From NCBI GenBank assembly GCA_016190025.1, contig JACPRG010000162.1, forward strand, positions 1 to 10,321: DNA of 10,321 nt, written 5' to 3'. The notes under the pieces were generated by a model that did not search any database, was not told where the DNA came from, and worked only from the letters and a program-made list of their open reading frames with translations. Shown one piece after another: positions 286 through 10,321 of the stretch. The translations under genes and the position numbers were made by a program. Origin of the DNA: Candidatus Tectimicrobiota bacterium. GTDB lineage: Bacteria > UBA8248 > JACPRG01. The stretch's first letter is position 1; each line of letters opens with the position of its first letter.

Positions 286-1320
286 TCAGTCCTTGGGGAT
301 GTTCACGATGTAGCGGTTGGTCCAGAGCCCGCCTTCTTTGATGTCCACGTCTTCTTTGACCGTGCCCGCCTTCCAGAGCTTCATCGAGTTGGCCCACATC
401 GCCTCGGTCATCCTTCCGCTCCCCCCGAAAGCGGGAACGAGCGAGCGCACGGACTCGGCGACGACTTCCGGCTTCATCCTCTTGAACCGGGCCTGGATCA
501 CCCGAGTGGACTCCTCCAGGTGGCTGGGAACGTAGTTCGTCCCCCGGGCCACGGCGCGGACCATTTTTCTGACGACTTCCGAATTGGCCGCCCCGTACTC
601 CTTCTTGATCGTCAGGACCTCATAGACCATGTTTCCCAACTCGGGGATGTCCCATCCGCTAAGGAGGATCTGCCCCAAACCCCGGCTGACGATCTCGGGA
701 CCCGCGGGGGGCGAAGCGCCGAAACCGTCGATCTGGCCCGTCGCGAGGGCGCTCACCAGGGCGGCCCCGAAGCCCACGGCCACGACGGAGACGTCACCCC
801 GCTTGAGCCCCCCGACGTTTTGCAGGTAATACCGGATGACATGCTCGCTGAGGCCGCCGAGGGAAGGCGCGCCGAAGGTCGCGCCTTTCATGGCTTGAAG
901 CTTCTGGACGGCGGGCGCGCGAGGATTCACGGCGGCCTTCTTCAACCACTTGTTGCCGGCGATGACCTGGAAGGTGAGCGCCCGGGCGAAAGAGTTGACC
1001 ACCAGGACGTTCTTTTGCCCCCTCGCCATGAGCACGACAGGAGTGTCGGAGCCCGTCGAAAGGAACGGAGCCTCTCCGGACAGGAATCCCGCCGCCGCCG
1101 CCGGCCCGCCCCGAACCACCGTGAAATCCAGGTCGATCCCTTCCTGTTTGAAAAAGCCTTTCCCGATGGCCACGTAGATCGGCGCGAAAGAAAGGGCGTC
1201 CACCGACTGGATCATCGTCACCTTGGAGGCGGCCCAGGCCGGATCTATCCCTCCCGAGAAAATCAGAAAGAACATGGTCGGCGCCAGCAAACAGCGTATG
1301 TTCCGGATGGCTCTTCCCAT
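286..1320 (-). CDS. ABC transporter substrate-binding protein (NMT1/SsuA/TauA-like)
   Basis: A 344-residue periplasmic binding protein of the family that captures nitrate, sulfonates, taurine or thiamine-precursor pyrimidines and passes the ligand to an inner-membrane ABC importer. Residues 1-31 form a Sec signal peptide: basic start (MGRAIRNIR), hydrophobic core (LLAPTMFFLIF) and a probable cleavage site after AWA. The mature part opens with a strand and the family's usual segment (SFAPIYVAIGKGFFKQEGID, about 44-63), then the ligand-contacting stretch around GFLSGEAPFLSTGSD (78-92) and the hinge region with ALATGQIDGF (191-200). There is no lipobox cysteine at the cleavage site. The ATG at 1320-1318 is preceded by GGGGAGGG at 9-nt spacing. 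It is the last gene of the importer operon, 74 bp after the permease. The ligand cannot be told from sequence; the neighbours suggest a nitrogen-containing organic compound. Confidence 0.9.
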   Translation of the reverse strand: MGRAIRNIRCLLAPTMFFLIFSGGIDPAWAASKVTMIQSVDALSFAPIYVAIGKGFFKQEGIDLDFTVVRGGPAAAAGFLSGEAPFLSTGSDTPVVLMARGQKNVLVVNSFARALTFQVIAGNKWLKKAAVNPRAPAVQKLQAMKGATFGAPSLGGLSEHVIRYYLQNVGGLKRGDVSVVAVGFGAALVSALATGQIDGFGASPPAGPEIVSRGLGQILLSGWDIPELGNMVYEVLTIKKEYGAANSEVVRKMVRAVARGTNYVPSHLEESTRVIQARFKRMKPEVVAESVRSLVPAFGGSGRMTEAMWANSMKLWKAGTVKEDVDIKEGGLWTNRYIVNIPKD

Positions 1321-1394
1321 TGTCTTTTGCCCTCCCCTTGTTCGTGAATTTCGATGCCTCACTCCGGACATGCCTGGCCCGCGACTTTGCGCCC

Positions 1395-2237
1395 TCACGA
1401 GACATCCTGCCAACGCAGGACCCGGGTCCGGACCGCCTCGAGCAGCAGGTTGGAAAAAAGAATCGCCAACAGGAGGACGATGATCCCCGCAAAGATCCCC
1501 GCCGTGTCGAACTGCCCGGTCGAAAACAGGATGTAGTGGCCGATCCCGGCCCGGGAGGCCACGAACTCGCCGATGATGACGCCGATGACGGCGCGGGGGA
1601 TTGAAACCTTGATCCCCATGAAGATGAAGGGGGCCACGGAGGGAACCACGACCCAGCGGATCACCTGCCACCGGCTCGCCCCGATGATCTGAGCGATGTG
1701 GATGAACTCGGGCTCGACGCTGCGCACCCCCAGGAACGTGTTGTAAAAGGTCAAAAAGAACACCATCATGCCCACAATGAAGATCTTGGACATCAGGCCG
1801 ATCCCGAACCAGATGATCAGCAAAGGGGCGAGGGCCGACTGGGGCACACCGTAGAGGACCATGACGTAGGGCTCGAAGACCCTCGAAAGGGTCTTGGAGG
1901 CCCCGAGGACGTAACCGAAGAACACCGCGCCCAGGGCCCCGAAGAGAAAGCCCCACCCCAGCTCCGTGAAGGTCACCTGCAAGTCCCGGAGACCTTCGGG
2001 GCTTCGGACGTATTCCAGGGTCCGCACAAGAATGATGCTCGGCTTGCTCGTATACAGGAGGTCGATGTACCGCCCGCCCGCAATTTCCCAAACCGCCAAG
2101 AGCAGGACGCCCGGCAAAAGGTCCACCCGTTTCTTCCCGAACCGAGCCAAGGACGAGGAAAGCCCTCTCGGTTTTTCCCGGCGTCCTTCGCTCAGAAGTC
2201 CCGCGCTCTGGGATTCAGGCGTGGCCTCCACGGTCAA
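1395..2237 (-). CDS. ABC transporter permease (SsuC/TauC-type, BPD_transp_1)
   Basis: An inner-membrane channel subunit of about 280 residues, the normal length for SsuC/TauC/NrtB-like permeases. After a polar N-terminus (1-38) I see hydrophobic segments near 40-55, 92-113, 123-147, 150-170, 198-226 and 246-268, fitting about six membrane helices. The cytoplasmic EAA-type coupling loop that docks on the ATPase is visible as IAQIIGASRWQVIRWVVVP (181-199). The first possible start is TTG at 2237-2235, overlapping the ATPase stop codon by 4 bp (TTGA). AGAAGG directly abuts this TTG but lies 6 nt before an in-frame GTG at 2232-2230, so that GTG may be the true start, making the protein two residues shorter. 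Either way it is translationally coupled to the ATPase gene. The family is clear; the transported compound is not. Confidence 0.92.
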   Translation of the reverse strand: MTVEATPESQSAGLLSEGRREKPRGLSSSLARFGKKRVDLLPGVLLLAVWEIAGGRYIDLLYTSKPSIILVRTLEYVRSPEGLRDLQVTFTELGWGFLFGALGAVFFGYVLGASKTLSRVFEPYVMVLYGVPQSALAPLLIIWFGIGLMSKIFIVGMMVFFLTFYNTFLGVRSVEPEFIHIAQIIGASRWQVIRWVVVPSVAPFIFMGIKVSIPRAVIGVIIGEFVASRAGIGHYILFSTGQFDTAGIFAGIIVLLLAILFSNLLLEAVRTRVLRWQDVS

Positions 2238-3103
2238 CCTTCTCTCTCCCGGCCGGCTTTCGCCCCATCGACCACCTCACTCCTGAACCGATCCCAGATC
2301 CCGCGGTACAGGTCGGGAAAAGATGGATCCTCGTGGATATTGAAGACGTTCCTGGGTCTTTCCAGGGGGATCGGGAAAATGCCTTTGACCCGCCCGGGCC
2401 GCTTCGTCATGAGGACCACGGTGTCCGAGAGCGCGATGGCCTCCACCAGGTCGTGGGTGATGAAGAGCACGGTCTTGTGGGTTTGCTGCCAGATCTGCTG
2501 GAGCTCGTTCTGCAAGACAAGACGGGTCTGCGCGTCCAACGGACCGAAGGGCTCGTCCATCAGGACCACCTCCGGGTCGTAGATCAGCGTCCGAATGATG
2601 GACGCCCGCTTCTGCATCCCGCCCGAAAGCTGCCTGGGGTAGGCGCGCTCGAATCCCGTCAGCCCGAACATCTCCAGGAACTCGGCCGCCTTCCTCCGGC
2701 GCTCCTCCTTTGGGATCCCCCGGACGGCGAGAGGGAACTCGACGTTCTCGATCAGCGTGAGCCAGGGGTAAAGGTTGCTGTCCTGGGTGACGTACCCGAT
2801 CCGGTTGTTGACCCGATTCACGCTCCAGTCTCTGTAGCGTACGGCGCCGGAGGTGGGAAAGGTCAGGCCGGCGCACATGCGCAGAAGGGTGGTCTTGCCG
2901 CAACCGCTGGGACCGACGATGGACGTGAACTCGTTCTCGCGAACGGAGAAGCTCGCCTCCTGGATGGCCAGGACGCGGTTGTTTTCGGATTCGAAGACCT
3001 TGGTGACCCGGTCGAAACGAATGGCGGGGCGCCCGTCCAAGAGACCTTTCTCCTGGATGTCACCCGTCTCCTGACGGCCGCAGACACCCTTCCTTTCGCC
3101 CAA
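2234..3103 (-). CDS. ABC transporter ATP-binding protein (SsuB/TauB/NrtD-type)
   Basis: A 289-residue cytoplasmic ATPase that powers the importer encoded with it. All nucleotide-binding motifs are present: Walker A GPSGCGKTT (64-72), Q-loop YVTQDSNLYPW (104-114), signature LSGGMQKR (159-166), Walker B VVLMDEPFG (179-187), D-loop PLDAQTR (188-194) and switch histidine in FITHD (214-218). Acidic-rich NxVEFPLAVRGI (120-130) and the tail around LERPR (247-251) match the nitrate/sulfonate/taurine subfamily. The chosen TTG at 3103-3101 follows a GGAGGGGGG run at suitable spacing. An in-frame TTG at 3040-3038 (residue 22), preceded by GGAGAAAGG, would remove a poorly conserved N-terminal extension and is a real alternative. 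This is the first gene after the promoter at 3163-3191, and its stop overlaps the permease start. Confidence 0.93.
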   Translation of the reverse strand: MGERKGVCGRQETGDIQEKGLLDGRPAIRFDRVTKVFESENNRVLAIQEASFSVRENEFTSIVGPSGCGKTTLLRMCAGLTFPTSGAVRYRDWSVNRVNNRIGYVTQDSNLYPWLTLIENVEFPLAVRGIPKEERRRKAAEFLEMFGLTGFERAYPRQLSGGMQKRASIIRTLIYDPEVVLMDEPFGPLDAQTRLVLQNELQQIWQQTHKTVLFITHDLVEAIALSDTVVLMTKRPGRVKGIFPIPLERPRNVFNIHEDPSFPDLYRGIWDRFRSEVVDGAKAGREREG

Positions 3104-3298: not shown

Positions 3299-4510
3299 TC
3301 ACTTGCCCTTCGGCCTCTCCAGGTTGAAGACCTTCAAGGCGGTCTCCCCGAGGATGTTCCGCCGGGCTTTGTCGCTCAAGAAAGGAAGATCAAAGACCGC
3401 GCTCGGCAGATCGAAGTCCCAGTGGGGCCAGTCGGTTGCGAACATCAGCTGCGTCTCGGCGTGAATCATCCGGAAGGTCAGCTCCAACGCATCCAGGTTC
3501 TCCCGTTCCATGGGCTGAGAGGAGAAATACATTTCCCGGATGTACTCGCTGGGCCGCCGCTTCAAAAGGGGCGCCTCCGACACGCGTTTCATATACTCAC
3601 TGTCCAGCCGCTGCATGACAAAAGGCAGCCAGGCCAAGCCGCTTTCGATCCAAATGACCTTCAATTTTGGGAACCGCTCAGGAAGGCCGTTCGTCACCCA
3701 ATTGATCAAATGGATCATATTCCACAAGGTGAACCCAATCAGGTGGTATCCCATGAATTTGTTCATTTGCGCCGTGACTGGCTCCTCTCCCCACGAATAA
3801 CCGGCGTGGAAAGCCAGCGGCAGGCCGCGTTCTTCAAGGGCCGCGTAGAGTTTCATGTACAGGTTGTCGTGGACCGGCTTGTTCCGGGTGCTGGTCACCA
3901 TGAAACCGATGACGCCGGGAGCGCCCGTGAATTCCTCCACCGTCCGCAGGGCCTCATCGGGCAGGCTGAACGGCAGATACAGGAGCGACTTTATCCGCTC
4001 GTCGCAAGAAAGAATGTTCTCCACGAGCCAGCGGTCATACGCCCGGGCGAGGAGAGCTTCGGTCCGGGCGTCCGGATGCTTGCCGAGATCGAGGAGCTTG
4101 GTCGGGAAGACGATCATATAGTCGAGCCCGATGCTATCCATGGCCCGCCGGATGATGGTGACATCCTTGTGGTGTTCCGACTCTTCCACCGGCTCCCGCC
4201 ATCCCGCCTGATGTTGAATGCGGCCACCGACGTCTTGGTAGTACATGATGTTGTTCACGACACCGTAAGGGGGAGACGCCACCTTGGAGTGATATTCAAC
4301 GGCGTGGGCGCGGACGACAGGATCCTCGATGTACTCCACAACCTCTTTCCATGACACATTGTCCGAATGGTGAGAATCCACATCGATGATCATATAATCT
4401 TGGTAGTTCCGTCCCGCCGCCTGGCGCTTCGCGTGGGCCAGGATCTCCCGTGTGTCCGTGCGGTGGTCGATCCGCTCCAGGTCTGTAGCCCACCCCATCC
4501 TGAATTCCAT
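3299..4510 (-). CDS. amidohydrolase_2 family metal-dependent hydrolase (TIM barrel)
   Basis: A 403-residue cytoplasmic enzyme of the amidohydrolase_2 family (relatives: ACMSD, 4-oxalomesaconate hydratase, gamma-resorcylate decarboxylase), which hydrolyses or decarboxylates small organic acids using a bound divalent metal. The first barrel strand carries IDVDSHHSD (42-50), the family's metal-ligand start (D-x-H-like). FHAGYSW (234-240) supplies a histidine ligand, IESGLAWLP (288-296) is the typical E-x-G-x-x-W-x-P segment, and FATDWPHWDFD (357-367) carries the catalytic/metal aspartate D360. The C-terminal ILGETALKVFNL is the usual family ending. The ATG at 4510-4508 follows GGGGGG at about 7 nt; an in-frame ATG four codons later (4498-4496) is possible. 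No signal peptide is seen. It lies 50 bp after the Rieske gene and is the last gene before the transporter promoter. The fold is clear, the substrate unknown; it could be hydrolase or decarboxylase. Confidence 0.88.
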   Translation of the reverse strand: MEFRMGWATDLERIDHRTDTREILAHAKRQAAGRNYQDYMIIDVDSHHSDNVSWKEVVEYIEDPVVRAHAVEYHSKVASPPYGVVNNIMYYQDVGGRIQHQAGWREPVEESEHHKDVTIIRRAMDSIGLDYMIVFPTKLLDLGKHPDARTEALLARAYDRWLVENILSCDERIKSLLYLPFSLPDEALRTVEEFTGAPGVIGFMVTSTRNKPVHDNLYMKLYAALEERGLPLAFHAGYSWGEEPVTAQMNKFMGYHLIGFTLWNMIHLINWVTNGLPERFPKLKVIWIESGLAWLPFVMQRLDSEYMKRVSEAPLLKRRPSEYIREMYFSSQPMERENLDALELTFRMIHAETQLMFATDWPHWDFDLPSAVFDLPFLSDKARRNILGETALKVFNLERPKGK

Positions 4511-4560: not shown

Positions 4561-4944
4561 TTACACCACGACGTAAACCTCTCCCGCCCGGACCTTCACT
4601 TCGAACTTCCTCAGCCGGATCCGATTGTCCGCCGGATGCACCCCCGTTTGGATATCAAATTCATACCCGTGCCAGGGACAGACGATGTGAATCTTTTGTT
4701 CCGAGAACCTCAGCCCGCGGCTGGTCTTGTCCTCCGCCAGGATCTCTTCCACGTTGGGAAACAGCCGGCCCTGGCAGACCGGTCCACCCAGGTGCGGGCA
4801 ATCATTCTCGTATGCATAAAAGCGGCCGCCGATGAAAAAGACCCCGATTTCGAGATCGTCCTTCACAATAATTTTGCACTCTCCGCCTTCAAAATCCGCC
4901 TGGCTCGCGACGTGTACTTCAGGCACGCCCGGTCTCTCCTGCAT
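4561..4944 (-). CDS. small Rieske [2Fe-2S] protein
   Basis: A 127-residue soluble Rieske-type ferredoxin, an electron carrier or partner subunit with a two-Cys two-His ligated iron-sulfur cluster. Both ligand boxes are intact: C49-P-H51 in ENDCPHLGGPVCQG and C89-P-W-H92 in VCPWHGYEFD, followed by the conserved QTG (99-101) and a final strand VRAGEVYVVV. The distance between boxes (40 residues from C49 to C89) is longer than the roughly 17-20 of classic Rieske ferredoxins because of an insert with acidic residues (about 62-82). I chose the ATG at 4944-4942 because AGGTGG lies 5 nt upstream. A GTG at 4953-4951 would overlap that site and is less likely. The gene starts inside the 3' end of the molybdenum-enzyme gene (26-bp overlap), so the two are translationally coupled and may share an electron path. 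No oxygenase catalytic domain is attached. Confidence 0.9.
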   Translation of the reverse strand: MQERPGVPEVHVASQADFEGGECKIIVKDDLEIGVFFIGGRFYAYENDCPHLGGPVCQGRLFPNVEEILAEDKTSRGLRFSEQKIHIVCPWHGYEFDIQTGVHPADNRIRLRKFEVKVRAGEVYVVV

Positions 4945-7261
4945 TGCGGCCACCTGAACGCTGCTTCAAGGCTTGAAATATCTTGTCGGGGGACAGGGGG
5001 AGCTCGCGGATGCGGGCGCCGACTGCATCGTACACAGCGTTGGCGATGGCGGCGGCCGTCGGCGTGATCGGCAGCTCCGCGAACCCCTTGGCGCCGAAGG
5101 GGCCTTCCTTCTCATCGGATGACACGACGATGGTCTGAATGGGGGGGATGTCCAGGGCGGTGGGCAGTTTGTAGTCGGCCAGGGTCCCGTTGAGGAGCTG
5201 GCCCGAAGCCGCGTCGAACACCATCTCCTCCATCAGGGCGTAGCCCACCCCCTGCATCACCCCGCCCTCGATCTGTCCCTCCACGCCCAGCAGGCTGATC
5301 GGGAAGCCCACGTCCTGGGCCGCCACGAGCCGGAGGACGTTCACGAAGCCGGTCTCCGGGTCCACTTCCACTTCCGCGGCCTGGGCGCAGAAGCTGTACG
5401 CGACCGAGATGTTCCCGAAGTTGGTCTTTTTATCCACGGCCTCGTGCGGCGGGTCATAGACCCCCCGGCCGATGAAGAGCCGGCTGTCCTTCCGGTAATG
5501 GCTCGCCCGGGCGACCTCGGCGATCCCGACCCGCCGGTCCGGCAATCCCCGGATGTAGATCTGGCCGTCCTCCGCGACCAGATCCTGCGCGTCGGCTTCC
5601 AGCATCTCCCCGGCCGCCCGGAGGATTTGCCCCCTGAGATCGAGGGCCGCCAGGCGGACGGCGTTCCCGGCGACGAACGTGCACCGGCTCCCGTGGGTCC
5701 CGAGGTCCCAGGGGACCGCGTCGGTATCCTCGCTCACCACGCGGACGGCCTCGGGCGGGATCCCGAGCTCCTCGGCGACCACCGCCGCGATCACCACGTT
5801 CTGGCCGCTTCCGATCTCCGTCGTGCCGGTCAGCACCACGACCGTCCCGTCGTCCTCCATTTTGGCGATGGCGCTCCCGACGTCCGTGTTCTGATACACG
5901 CGAACGCCCCCTCCGCAATGCACGGCGCAGGCGATCCCGACCCCGCGTCCGAACTTCCGGTCCCTTTTCTTCTCCGCCCATCGAACGGCCCGCGCCGTCC
6001 TCTCGATGCACTCCCGCATCCCGCAGCTCGTGATCCGGTAGCCGCACGCGGAGACGTCCCCCCGCTCCGTCGCGTTCCTGAGCCGGAATTCCACCGGGTC
6101 GATGCCGAGCCTCTCCGCCAGGACGTCGATGTGAACCTCCCGGGCGAAGGTGGCCTGGGGATTTCCATACCCTCGGTAGGCGCCGCCATAGTTCTTGTTC
6201 GTGTAGACAATCCTGCCATCGACCCGGCAGTCCTTGACCTTGCTGTACAAGGTGACGTTGTAGTTGGCCGCCGAGAACGTGACCCCCGGGGCCGCGCTCA
6301 TGTAAGCGCCGTTGTCCGTGACGATCCACATTTCCTGCCCCAGGATGCGACCGTCTTTGTCCGCGCCCGTCCGGAGACGGATGTGCATGGGATGGCGCGT
6401 CCTCGACCCGACAAAGTCCTCCTCGCGCGAATACACGATCCTGACCGGACGGCCGGTCTCCTTCGCCAAAAGGGCGCAGATGGGGTGCAAGTCGTGCATC
6501 TCCATGCGCTTTCCGAACCCCCCCCCGATGGTCGTCCGGATCACCCGGACCTGGCTTTCCGCGAGGCCGAGACAGCCCGCCAGGTGCTTGCGGAGAAGGA
6601 AAGGCATCTGAATCGAGGTCCAGACCGTCAGTCGGCCGGCCGGGTCGTACTGGGCGAGACAGCCCTGCGTCTCAAGACAACAGTGCTCGACCTGGGAAGT
6701 CACGAATTCGTCCTCGACCACCACATCCGCTCGGGAGAGCGCCCGATCCACATCCCCGAAATTCATCGACAAGGAGTGGGCCACGTTCCCCTTCACCCCC
6801 TCGTGGACCTCGGGCGCGCCCTCCCGCATGGCCTCCACAGGCGACATCACCAGCGGCAACGGCTCGTATTCGACTTCGATGAGCGCAAGCGCCCTGTCCG
6901 CCGTGTCATCGTCCACCGCAGCCACGGCCGCCACTTCCTCCCCCGCGAAGCGCACCTTCCCGTGCGCCAGGGGGAGCTTGTCGGCGAGCCGGGCATTCCC
7001 GGGGTCCGTGTCCTCGCGGAAACCGTACCGGATCAGGGGCGTGTCCTCGGCCGTGATGACCGCCTTGACGCCGGGAAGGGCTTTTGCCTTGCGGGTGTCG
7101 ATCTTCTGGATCCGGGCGTGCGCGTAAGGGCTTCGGAGGATCTTGCCGACCAGCATCCCCGGCAGCGTGACGTCCGTTCCGTAGACCGCCCGGCCGGTGG
7201 CTTTAGGCGCCCCGTCGAGCCTCGGGATGCGCTGGCCAACGACGCGATGGGCAGGTTTCAT
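4919..7261 (-). CDS. xanthine dehydrogenase family molybdopterin-binding large subunit
   Basis: A 780-residue protein covering both the aldehyde-oxidase/XDH hammerhead domain (about 15-140) and the molybdopterin-binding domain (about 160-770), the usual length for CoxL/HcrA/NdhM-like large subunits. Such enzymes hydroxylate aromatic or heterocyclic carbon or oxidise aldehydes with a Mo-cytosine-dinucleotide type cofactor. Key segments: GGGFGKRMEMHD (246-257), AYRGYGNPQ (361-369, the substrate/active loop; not the AYRCSFR loop of CO dehydrogenase), TEIGSGQNVV (481-490), GTHGSR (521-526) and GAKGFAE (723-729), whose E729 fits the catalytic glutamate. The ATG at 7261-7259 is preceded by GGGAG at about 9 nt. 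The N-terminus (VVGQRIPRLDGAPKATGRA) is the family's standard opening. The gene follows the hydantoinase-like gene after 80 bp and overlaps the Rieske gene. The partner 2Fe-2S and FAD subunits are absent from the window. The substrate is unknown; a heterocycle fits the context. Confidence 0.93.
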   Translation of the reverse strand: MKPAHRVVGQRIPRLDGAPKATGRAVYGTDVTLPGMLVGKILRSPYAHARIQKIDTRKAKALPGVKAVITAEDTPLIRYGFREDTDPGNARLADKLPLAHGKVRFAGEEVAAVAAVDDDTADRALALIEVEYEPLPLVMSPVEAMREGAPEVHEGVKGNVAHSLSMNFGDVDRALSRADVVVEDEFVTSQVEHCCLETQGCLAQYDPAGRLTVWTSIQMPFLLRKHLAGCLGLAESQVRVIRTTIGGGFGKRMEMHDLHPICALLAKETGRPVRIVYSREEDFVGSRTRHPMHIRLRTGADKDGRILGQEMWIVTDNGAYMSAAPGVTFSAANYNVTLYSKVKDCRVDGRIVYTNKNYGGAYRGYGNPQATFAREVHIDVLAERLGIDPVEFRLRNATERGDVSACGYRITSCGMRECIERTARAVRWAEKKRDRKFGRGVGIACAVHCGGGVRVYQNTDVGSAIAKMEDDGTVVVLTGTTEIGSGQNVVIAAVVAEELGIPPEAVRVVSEDTDAVPWDLGTHGSRCTFVAGNAVRLAALDLRGQILRAAGEMLEADAQDLVAEDGQIYIRGLPDRRVGIAEVARASHYRKDSRLFIGRGVYDPPHEAVDKKTNFGNISVAYSFCAQAAEVEVDPETGFVNVLRLVAAQDVGFPISLLGVEGQIEGGVMQGVGYALMEEMVFDAASGQLLNGTLADYKLPTALDIPPIQTIVVSSDEKEGPFGAKGFAELPITPTAAAIANAVYDAVGARIRELPLSPDKIFQALKQRSGGRNAGETGRA

Positions 7262-7341
7262 TGCACAGGTCTCCCGACTTCCCGGAAAGAAGGACACACC
7301 GACCGGCCGTCGCCGCTCCCGGGTCTTCGGCTCACGATTCC

Positions 7342-8736
7342 TCAGCGGCCCGGAACAGCGCGCCCTTGCCGCGGAACGACAAGGGGTCTTCGCAACACCC
7401 TTCCGCACCCCGGCTCGACGAGGATCCGACCGTCCTCGGCCGCGACGACTCCCCCCTTGATGGTCACGACCGGCCAGCCGCGGACCTTCTTTCCTTCGTA
7501 CAGGGAAAAGTCCGCCAGCGTATGGAGATCCGACGCCCGGACCACCCTCTCCTTGTCCGGGTCGACAACGACGAGGTCCGCGTCGCTTCCGGGCGCGAGG
7601 GTCCCCTTCCTGGGGAACAGGCCGAAGATCCGGGCGGGCTGCCGGGTCATCTTGTCGACCAGCTTCTCCAGGGGGAACTTGCGCCTGTGATAGGCCTCCT
7701 CGAAGAGCACCGGCAGGTGGACCTCCAGAAAGGTGGCGGCCCCCTTCGCCCCGATGAGTCCCGCCTCGACCTGCTTGTAGGCCCGGTTTCTCTGAATGTT
7801 GTCCGTCCCCAGCGTGTCGATGACACCCTCGGCCATCCCCCCCCACAGGGCCTCCCGGTCCTCCTCGCCCCGGAGCGGAGGAATCAGCTTCGCCAGGAGC
7901 CCCATCTTCGAGTGCTTCGTCAGGGTGAGGTAGGGGGTGCACGTCTCCGCGAAGAGATCCTTCCTCCCCTTGCGGAGCTCCCTCAGCCGCCGGAGGGCCT
8001 CCTGGGTGGAGACGTGAACAATGTAGATGCGGCAGCCGGCCTTTCCCGCCAGGTAGGTGGAGCGGAGGACCGCCTCCTCTTCCACCAGGTTCGGATGGCA
8101 GTCGGCCCAGTCCGCCAGATTCCCCTCCGGCCTCCGCTCCCCGATGCGGGCCCGCGTCAGAATGATGATGGGGGCGTTCTCGGCGTGCACCACGGCCAGC
8201 CCCGCGGGCCCGAGGCTCGCGATCTGGCGGAACGCTTCGAGAAGCACCCCGTCGTCCACCGGCGTCGCCGCGCCCTTGATCCCGGACATGAACATCTTGA
8301 AAGAGGTCACGCCGAAGCGCCTGGCGCACTCGGGGATCTCCAGGGCCTGGGCCTCGGAGATGATCTCGAAGTGGGGGAAGATGTCGATCGAGCTGTTGGC
8401 CTCGAAGGCCCTGGAGACGCCGCCAAAGGCCTTGAGGTGGGAATCGGGCTCGCGGATGAAGGTCCCGACCGTCGTCACCCCCCCGGCCAGCGCCGCCCGC
8501 GTCTCCGCCCGGCAATCCTCTTCCAGGTTCCCGAGGAGGCCGAAATGGACGTGGGGATCGATGACGCCCGGCAGGACGAAGGCCCCGTCCACGTCGAGGA
8601 CCCGCCGGGCGGAGGGAAGAACGTCCTCCCGCGCGACGGCCCGGATCTTCCCCCCTTGAATTGCCACCCCGGCGCGCACGAGCCCCTGGCCGGGGATCAC
8701 CAGCGTACCGCCCCGCAGCACCAGATCCGCCTTCAC
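7342..8736 (-). CDS. dihydropyrimidinase/hydantoinase-like cyclic amidohydrolase
   Basis: A 464-residue cytoplasmic enzyme of the dihydropyrimidinase/dihydroorotase/allantoinase superfamily, which opens cyclic amides or imides using a two-metal centre. Metal ligands visible: DPHVHFG (H62, H64), the lysine that becomes carboxylated in SFKMFM (K147), VVHAEN (H184), IVHVST (H241) and the aspartate in GTDN (D312). The C-terminal PGSDADLVVVDPD is the family's closing beta-sandwich motif. Unlike classic D-hydantoinases, the residues after the lysine read FMSGIKG instead of FMAY, and the last ligand box is GTDNIQRN instead of SDH-type, so the substrate is probably not plain dihydropyrimidine. I chose the GTG at 8736-8734 because AGGAGG (8747-8742) is 5 nt away; the preceding GTG at 8739 would leave only 2 nt. 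It starts 24 bp after the selenoprotein stop codon, tightly in the same operon. Confidence 0.9.
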   Translation of the reverse strand: MKADLVLRGGTLVIPGQGLVRAGVAIQGGKIRAVAREDVLPSARRVLDVDGAFVLPGVIDPHVHFGLLGNLEEDCRAETRAALAGGVTTVGTFIREPDSHLKAFGGVSRAFEANSSIDIFPHFEIISEAQALEIPECARRFGVTSFKMFMSGIKGAATPVDDGVLLEAFRQIASLGPAGLAVVHAENAPIIILTRARIGERRPEGNLADWADCHPNLVEEEAVLRSTYLAGKAGCRIYIVHVSTQEALRRLRELRKGRKDLFAETCTPYLTLTKHSKMGLLAKLIPPLRGEEDREALWGGMAEGVIDTLGTDNIQRNRAYKQVEAGLIGAKGAATFLEVHLPVLFEEAYHRRKFPLEKLVDKMTRQPARIFGLFPRKGTLAPGSDADLVVVDPDKERVVRASDLHTLADFSLYEGKKVRGWPVVTIKGGVVAAEDGRILVEPGCGRVLRRPLVVPRQGRAVPGR

Positions 8737-8741
8737 CACGG

Positions 8742-8760: not shown

Positions 8761-10065
8761 TCAGAAAACCCGATGGGTCTCCACATCCGTGGCGACGGCC
8801 TGGAGGGCGCGCTCCACCAGCTTCCGGCGGAATTCTCTCTCTCCGGCGGGGTCGAGCTCGGGGTTTCCCACCACGTGGGGAATGCCGGCCCCGGTGACGA
8901 TCCGGTTCGCGCCCACGTTCCGGGCGACCGAGCTCAACGTGGCGATGAGGGCCGCCGGGAGCCCCTCTCTCTCGATTTCCTTCGCGATCGCTGACCCGCA
9001 GCGAGTGCAAGTCCCTCACGTGGCGGTGATGAGCGCCGCCTGGACGTCCGATTCCTTCAACTCGCGGGCGATGGCCTGCCCCATGCGGGCGCCAGCCTCA
9101 TAGTACGTGCTGCATCCGGCCACGGTGTAGAAGTAGTCGAAGACCTTTCCAATCCGGCCCTCCTTTTCCAGGGAGCGGGAGACGTCCAGGGGGACCAGCC
9201 GGTCGGGGTCTTCGTTGACGTAAACGGTGGAGTATCCCCCGTGGTTGCCCTCGTAGGCCGGGGGTTGGAAATCCTCCAGGCCCGCGATGGGGTACTTTCC
9301 GAAGCGCGTCGCCATGGTGGATTCCAGACGATCGGGATTGCCCTTGGGCACGAGTCCGCCCGTGGTGACGAGGGCGATGGTGGCCCTGGACAGGTCTTTC
9401 ACGGCCGGAGCCGGCGGCACCCGGTCGAACTTCGGCGTCACCAGCTCCGTCTGAAAGGGTCGGCCTTGAACCTTGGCGAGGATCATGTCGATGGCCCGTT
9501 CCACGCCTTTCTTCCCGACGAGGACGTTTTTCCGCAGCCCCCGCGGAAAATAGCCCTCTTCCCGGGGATGCCCCGGGGTTTCCCCCCGCACCAGCTTGAG
9601 GCTCAGCCGGGCGATGGCCTCCAAGGCTGCGCTCATCCCCCGGGCGTTGTCCGAGGTCTGGACAATGTAGGTGTCCCGCCGGTAATCCACGCCGGGGTTC
9701 TCCGGCGCCATTCCGGTCACCGTGGGGATGCCCAGGGCCTGGCCGACCTTCTGGCACAAGACGCCGCAGGCGTAGCCGTAGCGCCCGGAGTTGAAGGCGG
9801 GCCCCGCGATGAACAGGTCGGGCCGCGCCCCCCGGATCAGGGCCAACAGCCGCTCCGCCGCTTCCTCCGTCCGCTCGGCGAAGAAGTTATCCCCGCAGAT
9901 GGCGGTCAGGACGATCTCCCCCTCTCCCCGAAGGGCCTCTTGCAGAGGCCGGCCCGGCCCGACGGGTCCCTCCGCCGAGGTGGGGGCGGCCGAGGCCTTG
10001 GCTTCCCCGCCAATCCCCCCGAAGAACTGATTCAGGTAATGGACGACTCGAACCGGCGCCGCCAT
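8761..10065 (-). CDS. grdB: GrdB-like selenoprotein (glycine/sarcosine/betaine reductase protein B, Sec at residue 350)
   Basis: A 434-residue GrdB-family selenoprotein, the catalytic subunit of substrate-specific protein B in glycine, sarcosine or betaine reductase, where selenocysteine takes part in reductive C-N cleavage. Family segments: N-terminal VRVVHYLNQFFGGIGGE (5-21), AGPAFNSGRYGYACG (87-101), ALVTTGGLVPKGNPDRLES (231-249), HGGYSTVYVNEDPDRLVPLD (275-294) and DYFYTVAG (310-317). After ITAT the frame meets TGA (9018-9016), then continues open for 84 codons as GTCTRCGSAIAKEIER, then VGANRIVTGAGIPHVVGNPEL, ending in a RRKLVERALQAV tail. U-x-x-C-x-x-C is the known GrdB redox motif. Total length and C-terminal homology match full GrdB, so TGA is decoded, not terminal. 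The ATG at 10065 has GGAGG 6 nt upstream; a TTG at 10080 is less likely. It lies 22 bp after the GrdE-like gene. The exact substrate is undetermined; the segment before VGANRIV (SSVARN) departs from the clostridial form. Confidence 0.92.
8982..9010 (-). promoter_or_regulatory. bacterial SECIS-like hairpin downstream of the Sec codon
   Basis: Inside the coding sequence, on the minus strand, a perfect 6-bp stem TCGCTG/CAGCGA (9004-8999 with 8993-8988) closes a 5-nt loop CGGGT. A 2x2 internal loop and a lower 4-bp stem TTGC/GCGA (9010-9007 with 8985-8982, one G-U pair) extend it. The apical loop begins 18 nt after the TGA and contains GGGU, in line with the bacterial SECIS rule of a small loop carrying G or GU roughly 16-37 nt after UGA, which SelB recognises. 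Identified by eye, not by a folding program. Confidence 0.7.
9016..9018 (-). other. in-frame TGA read as selenocysteine (Sec350 of the GrdB-like protein)
   Basis: Minus-strand TGA lies between ACG (Thr) and GGG ACT TGC ACT CGC TGC (G-T-C-T-R-C). It sits exactly where GrdB proteins carry selenocysteine. The frame is continuous on both sides with family homology, and a SECIS-like hairpin follows. Automated callers would end the gene here. Confidence 0.92.
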
Positions 10066-10087: not shown

Positions 10088-10321
10088 CTAAAAGCCCTGG
10101 GCGCAAAGAAAGTTGTCGCCGAAAAAGCTCACGGGCCCGGGCATCTTGTTGTAGGGAACCTCCACGGGCTCCCGGGGGTCCTGGTCGTAGTCCTTGAGGC
10201 GCTGGCCCCCCACGACGCGCTCGACCCTGGGGAGCCGGATCATCTCGGCGCAATTGCCGACGGCGACGATGGCATCGGCGCGGGGGCTCGAGTCCGCCAG
10301 GGCCCCCTCCGACGACCCGCC
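10088..10321 (-). CDS. GrdE-like protein B precursor subunit, C-terminal fragment (cut by window edge)
   Basis: The last 77 residues of a gene entering from the right edge; it ends at TAG (10090-10088), 22 bp before the GrdB-like ATG. The piece SSPRADAIVAVGNCAEMIRL and the following PRVERVVGG match the C-terminal region I know from GrdE/GrdI/PrdA-type precursors (pattern D-A-I-V-x-x-G-N-x-x-E-x-x-x-L-P-x-x-x-x-V-I-G). These precursors are cleaved to alpha and beta subunits carrying a pyruvoyl group that binds the substrate amine. The cleavage site lies outside the window. After VVGG the tail (RLKDYDQDPREPVEVPYNKM then PGPVSFFGDNFLCAQGF) does not resemble the ending I remember for clostridial GrdE, which fits a divergent branch. 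The position directly before grdB matches grdE-grdB and grdI-grdH gene pairs. Family assignment is good, precise orthology unsure. Confidence 0.72.
   Translation of the reverse strand, partial: GGSSEGALADSSPRADAIVAVGNCAEMIRLPRVERVVGGQRLKDYDQDPREPVEVPYNKMPGPVSFFGDNFLCAQGF

Follow-up and report, generated by a model that had tools for sequence, protein, structure and literature searches.

Does the TGA at 9016..9018 of this locus end a gene, or does it encode selenocysteine (Sec) within a longer one? The window, by which we mean the whole 10,321-nucleotide stretch of Candidatus Tectimicrobiota DNA analysed here (G+C 64.6%), carries on its minus strand a grdB-like frame that opens with an ATG at 10065, meets TGA as codon 350, runs on for 84 codons and closes with a terminal TGA at 8763-8761. 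Translation reproduced to the base what the original prediction had given for this frame, namely its strand, the TGA at 9018-9016 and the 84 further codons. We examined the gene, its relatives at the protein and DNA levels, the RNA structure that follows the TGA, and the neighbouring genes.

The reading frame around the TGA

Read through, the gene (8761..10065, minus strand) would encode a GrdB-family selenoprotein of 434 residues with Sec at residue 350, as judged by translation and by Pfam and NCBIfam profiles. Residues 349-356 would be T-U-G-T-C-T-R-C, the motif in full being T-U-G-T-C-T-R-C-G, and both downstream cysteines, C353 and C356, are kept. The Pfam family GRDB (PF07355) matched residues 5-349 with 463.5 bits (cut-off 22), and NCBIfam TIGR01918 matched residues 6-434 with 524.1 bits (cut-off 65.45), running across the TGA to the end of the profile; the conserved C-terminus that had been said to lie hidden behind the TGA is indeed there. 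The following gene begins at GTG 8739 or GTG 8736, which is 21 or 24 bases past the grdB-like gene, so that the predicted gap of 24 bp holds for the second start and not for the first. The Shine-Dalgarno sequence claimed for this gap is present as AGGAGG.

Taken alone, the 84-codon open frame is weak evidence for read-through, because 7917 of 20,000 order-1 Markov sequences of equal length and composition (40%) also lacked a stop over 84 codons. That an open downstream frame is not rare at the G+C of the window is one point in favour of genuine termination at the TGA, in a GrdB gene that is truncated or decaying. Another is that standard gene callers end the gene there; the database entry for the window protein has 349 residues, which is the truncation that had been expected of standard annotation. 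Codon-position base composition speaks against a true stop, since it is alike on either side of the TGA (0.676/0.487/0.860 before and 0.682/0.524/0.845 after).

The TGA and the Sec column among relatives

We scored 7999 candidate proteins and obtained 6761 homologues; the protein-level figures that follow refer to the best 120 of these 6761. Seventy-one of the 120 have at least 400 residues, and the remaining 49 are shorter. All 49 lack the Sec column, a pattern that reaches down to 54% identity, and at least 45 of them end exactly one residue before that column. The three nearest listed entries, which are 81%, 73% and 71% identical to the window protein, each stop at this same point. Truncation that recurs just before one column over such a range of identity argues against a true stop in a decaying gene.

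The Sec column of the 71 full-length homologues holds 62 W, 5 C, 3 G and 1 gap. The five Cys homologues were counted without the query's own C-for-U, and two of them are named Bathyarchaeota. Genetic codes 4 and 25 translate TGA as W and G. Because these tables give W and G at this position, we take both residues most likely to represent TGA in the homologues' genes, an effect of gene calling. The Trp of the 62 full-length entries (P0013 to P0110) is most likely a translation artefact, and could mislead the building of profiles.

At face value, the 62 W and 3 G would favour decoding of the TGA as some other amino acid in a recoded organism (table 4 or 25). We regard this as extremely improbable. 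The W and G are most likely the gene-caller effect just described, and TGA is the ordinary terminator of six of the eight other window genes, so UGA is not reassigned wholesale here. Groups that use table 4 or 25 also differ from the 64.6% G+C of the window, which counts further against recoding. The five Cys homologues, for their part, lend something to the idea that a sequencing or assembly error made a Cys codon into TGA. This too has next to no probability in our judgement: the 349-residue form falls in a cluster of two sequences from two contigs (90% clustering), the nearest listed relative, at 81% identity, stops at that residue as well, and a SECIS-type hairpin lies directly 3' of the TGA.

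At the DNA level, TGA was found at the aligned codon in all 65 distinct GrdB places of the examined loci. These places are a subset of all GrdB places listed, taken at tblastn E <= 1e-40; two short matches (L065 and L008) end before the Sec site and were left out. Two of the 65 are annotated in their records as grdF (Peptoclostridium acidaminophilum) and grdH (Enterococcus gilvus), so that comparison of the read-through product with GrdB and GrdH relatives, proposed as a check on the original prediction, found the TGA common to all. The claim that codon 350 is the known Sec position of the family, UxxCxxC, agrees with this result and with the presence of C353 and C356. Since all 65 relatives have the TGA plus an aligned continuation, a true stop is already very unlikely on this evidence, and we consider its overall probability to be very small.

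The same arrangement was seen in wider searches, in which up to four candidates per genome were scored. Among the 400 genomes of the phylum set of genome G001, of which 10 had a match, a single in-frame TGA was present at 15 of 16 places, the sixteenth being a fragment that stops short of the site. Among the 395 genomes of the G004 phylum set, of which 18 had a match, the TGA was present at 25 of 25 places, two of which had an additional stop. A further phylum-wide search covered largely the genomes of the G004 set. The window's own clade was not found in the phylum-wide searches, in which the best full-length identity was 54%; the L065 fragment (genome G079) is 58% identical to the window protein and, by score, no nearer to the window protein than to other GrdBs. 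The viral contigs searched gave no relative. One separate record from human faeces, MT838886.1 (4783 bases), which is labelled Bacteriophage sp. and is perhaps a bacterial fragment, carries at 720-2006 a GrdB relative of almost full length with 49.9% identity.

A SECIS-type hairpin follows the TGA

An Rfam search of the window at E up to 5 returned SECIS_4 on the minus strand at 8978..9015 as the sole SECIS. The match starts on the first base past the TGA and has a score of 27.9 bits (E 0.007 over the whole window), which is below the gathering score of 38. The element has the core stem CGCTG / CAGCG and the loop CGGGT, and its assignment as a bacterial SECIS draws on both the Rfam match and covariation. 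Folding of the window's hairpin stretch alone was no better than that of shuffles (z -0.57), and pair 21/25 is C-U in the window, as it is in 7 of the 64 distinct rows used for covariation.

Covariation was assessed on a six-pair stem in a gap-free alignment of 66 genes (64 distinct rows). Pairing was kept in 97.9% of cells versus 88.0% in shuffles, 34 stem cells were changed on both sides versus 8.2, and the covariation score was 0.295 versus 0.109. None of 500 shuffles reached any of these three values, a count that is no probability because the rows are related. A slid control, which preserves relatedness, gave 16.9-68.0% pairing when partners were shifted by 1 to 3 columns. Two of the five stem measures were not above shuffles (double-change pairs, 2 versus 2.0; further pair types, 5 versus 4.4). 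Three pair types were seen at 19/27 (U-A, A-U and G-C) and three at 18/28 (U-A, C-G and G-U). On the homologue, hairpin and window-gene evidence we rejected all three alternatives, namely a true stop, a sequencing error and decoding as another amino acid.

We consider the reading of codon 350 (9016..9018, minus strand) as selenocysteine very secure because the profile crosses the TGA, 65 of 65 relatives have TGA there, and a covarying SECIS-type hairpin follows. The probability that the window gene is a selenoprotein of this kind is, in our estimate, about 0.93.

Sec machinery in the genomes of relatives

SelB scored above its cut-off in 30 of 32 genomes with GrdB relatives (6 of 6 and 24 of 26). 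Of 26 genomes for which no GrdB match was listed, 17 also had SelB, and its occurrence in the relatives' genomes is therefore expected and not striking. A tRNA-Sec exceeded the Rfam score in four of six relatives' genomes, and GrdA was found in 28 of the 32 genomes with GrdB relatives. Judged from these genomes, the host very likely decodes UGA as Sec. In G001 we counted ten GRDB matches and no GrdA match, and in G004 twenty and two, respectively (loci L102-L111 are among the examples).

The window protein belongs to a separate GrdB clade

The protein has the marks of the GrdB-type family, with a full-length profile match, a TGA at UxxC(xxC), a SECIS-type hairpin, albeit below gathering score, and an adjoining GrdE-type gene. 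It missed the equivalog cut-off of glycine reductase GrdB proper (TIGR01917; 496.2 of 602.2 bits) and the cut-offs of sarcosine reductase GrdF (NF040794; 523.1 of 800 bits) and betaine reductase GrdH (NF040795; 449.5 of 775 bits). In an 81-row tree it fell inside a 13-row clade with support of 100/100, the other 12 rows being database proteins. The next relatives of this clade are L038, L013 and L077, and the joint 16 rows were supported at 100/95. The annotated GrdF of P. acidaminophilum (L122) and GrdH of E. gilvus (L123) lie outside the 13-row clade. On its sequence, the window protein is placed in an uncharacterised GrdB clade. It is like GrdB, GrdF and GrdH in whole-length homology, in the place of Sec, in the U-x-x-C-x-x-C motif and in its adjoining GrdE-type partner, but unlike them in falling below each substrate-specific cut-off, in its separate clade, and in having Ala for Ser two residues before Sec.

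At that position, number 348 (9022-9024), the window protein has Ala; 39 of the 65 relatives have S, 23 have A and 3 have G. In the available text of PMC10838667, the STUG motif's Ser is put forward as a residue that might supply the carbonyl. This proposal can hardly cover the whole family, because residue 348 is A or G in 26 of 65. The cysteines are themselves variable, the one at 353 being present in 43 of the 65 relatives and the one at 356 in 50. PrdB of D-proline reductase resembles the window protein, as far as the available description goes, in its UxxC motif, and its profile matches in part at window residues 208-396, but with 85.6 bits against a cut-off of 300 the window protein is not a member.

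An AlphaFold2 model, computed with C for Sec from a 56-row alignment, had a mean pLDDT of 93.2 and a pTM of 0.66. In the model, residue 350 lies between a strand (343-348) and a helix (351-366), which is followed by two more strands and helices; the later blocks score 90-98. A stop at residue 349 would, on this model, delete that helix together with the two strands and helices. Of the 50 matches listed by a fold search of solved structures, which were to Rossmann-like proteins, none was convincing (query TM 0.16-0.21), and a PDB sequence search with the window protein gave no match.

Genes around the GrdB-like gene

All genes described here lie on the minus strand. The 3' end of a GrdE-like gene (10088..10321; component B alpha subunit; Pfam Gly_reductase, 29.0 bits, cut-off 22.2) stops 22 bases ahead of the grdB start, most of this gene lying beyond the contig end. 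The window seems to span an entire metagenome contig, since the longest contig of the cluster that contains its Amidohydro_2 protein at 100% is 10321 bases long. On the other side is a hydantoinase or dihydropyrimidinase-like amidohydrolase (7342..8739, with the alternative starts given above; Amidohydro_1, 85 bits), for which the best NCBIfam match was D-hydantoinase with 271.7 bits, below the cut-off of 393.25. A xanthine-dehydrogenase (XDH)-like molybdopterin-binding subunit (4919..7261; MoCoBD_1, MoCoBD_2 and Ald_Xan_dh_C) follows; its profiles were matched on the longer frame 4919-7297, and the start at ATG 7261 was placed by inference. Next come a Rieske-type ferredoxin (4561..4953; Pfam Rieske, 37.5 bits), an Amidohydro_2 protein (3299..4510; 86.5 bits) and, by Pfam, an ABC importer (286..3061) made up of an ATPase (2234-3061), a permease (1395-2237) and an NMT1-like binding protein (286-1311), the starts of the ATPase and the binding protein being provisional. 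The XDH-like frame and the Rieske frame overlap by 35 bases. A FAD-subunit query had no match on the contig. Relatives of the hydantoinase and of the Amidohydro_2 protein bear mixed names, among them Deltaproteobacteria, Chloroflexi, Tectomicrobia, Nitrospinota, Acidobacteria and others.

We surveyed 46 GrdB regions in other genomes, and within 8 kb found GrdE in 43, GrdA in 22 and GrdC or D in 21. At the same distance, XDH-type genes and binding proteins were each present in 6 regions, amidohydrolases in 3 and HyuA/B in 1; the regions were of unequal length, and several queries were taken from surveyed loci (L003, L004, L110, L115 and L117), which match themselves. The amidohydrolase (3/46) and HyuA/B (1/46) counts come entirely from these query-source loci. 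Twenty control regions gave 0 for every gene class in the survey; these came from 14 genomes that did not include G001, G003, G004, G440, G711 and G763, and because the omitted genomes hold the majority of matches to XDH-type genes, binding proteins and amidohydrolases, the controls are no test of those matches. No close match to the window hydantoinase was found near GrdB in other genomes, where the one match was a weak piece of 91 residues in L003, and a recurrent link between the two, sought in those genomes, was not seen. The evidence that ties the clade to ring-opening and importer genes is no more than suggestive.

When GrdA, GrdC and GrdD queries from named records were compared with the contig, GrdA gave no match at E 10 and the others gave E 0.14 or worse. 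The sister loci L109, L110 and L116 likewise held no GrdA, C or D within the examined stretch, which is 10 kb in L109, with GrdB at its end, and 4.5 kb in L116. Within the Sec reading, these results would fit a complex that runs without GrdA, C and D and carries out a reaction other than the formation of acetyl phosphate, as would the lack of GrdA beside the ten GrdB matches of G001. We think such a complex unlikely, though well short of negligible. The window is a single contig and the stretches of L109 and L116 are short, while G004 and G440, the hosts of two sister loci, carry GrdA elsewhere. Furthermore, according to the available text of PMC10838667, many bacteria run several B complexes into one common system.

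Proposed function and substrate

By analogy with the family, the gene product would be the beta subunit, carrying Sec, of a 'protein B' complex, which binds the substrate in reductases of the glycine, sarcosine and betaine kind, and the product of the GrdE-like gene just upstream would be its partner subunit. UGA would be read by SelB with Sec-tRNA, the selenolate would attack the alpha carbon of the substrate, and the carboxymethyl group would be handed to a GrdA protein. If the reaction is the usual one, its gene must be elsewhere in the genome.

The gene order suggests a putative operon of an importer, a molybdenum-hydroxylase-like subunit, a Rieske protein, a hydantoinase-like ring opener and the GrdE-GrdB pair. 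From these neighbours we would guess, tentatively, that the substrate is a small N-substituted acid, which the hydantoinase-like enzyme would free from a cyclic amide that the ABC importer brings in. The clade might then be a selenoenzyme subfamily with a new substrate, in which Sec-dependent reductive cleavage of a C-N (or C-X) bond serves an operon for the catabolism of cyclic amides or N-heterocycles outside Stickland fermentation; we offer this as a speculative proposal that is more probably wrong than right. Creatinine breakdown by way of 1-methylhydantoin, carbamoylsarcosine and sarcosine reductase was considered as a pathway because Tissierella creatinophila combines a D-hydantoinase-like gene with sarcosine reductase (PMC5364220), and by this analogy it may be guessed at here.

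A GrdE-GrdB-type pair turned to a new substrate is described in the available text of PMC10838667, for FarB/FarE, the fluoroacetate reductase component of Cloacibacillus. The pair there is like that of the window in its type and in an operon without grdA. FarB is said in that text to be without CxxC, whereas the window protein has both cysteines, and the neighbours given for FarB/FarE are an antiporter and a radical SAM protein, whereas those in the window are hydantoinase-like, XDH-like, Rieske and ABC importer genes.

Known background and significance

GrdB with UxxC is tabulated in the available parts of PMC9312934 and PMC13188914, the latter of which names the UxxCxxC motif, and GrdB selenoproteins are listed for many bacteria in that of PMC1794560. 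The family, the Sec position and UxxCxxC are already published, and the window gene is a correct but ordinary case. Novelty, if there is any, is confined to the clade and the gene neighbourhood. In the open-licence PMC literature we found no paper on a GrdB selenoprotein together with hydantoin, and the T. creatinophila work was the only one on glycine reductase with hydantoinase; four papers, PMC1794560 among them, came up for GrdB with Chloroflexi and selenocysteine.

The locus clearly illustrates how the catalytic part of a selenoenzyme is lost from view in gene calling: among the best 120 homologues, 49 are missing the Sec site and all that follows it, and another 62 have a Trp there that is most likely false. 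It also draws attention to an uncharacterised GrdB clade, known here from database entries only, for which the neighbours on one contig suggest a substrate besides glycine, sarcosine and betaine.
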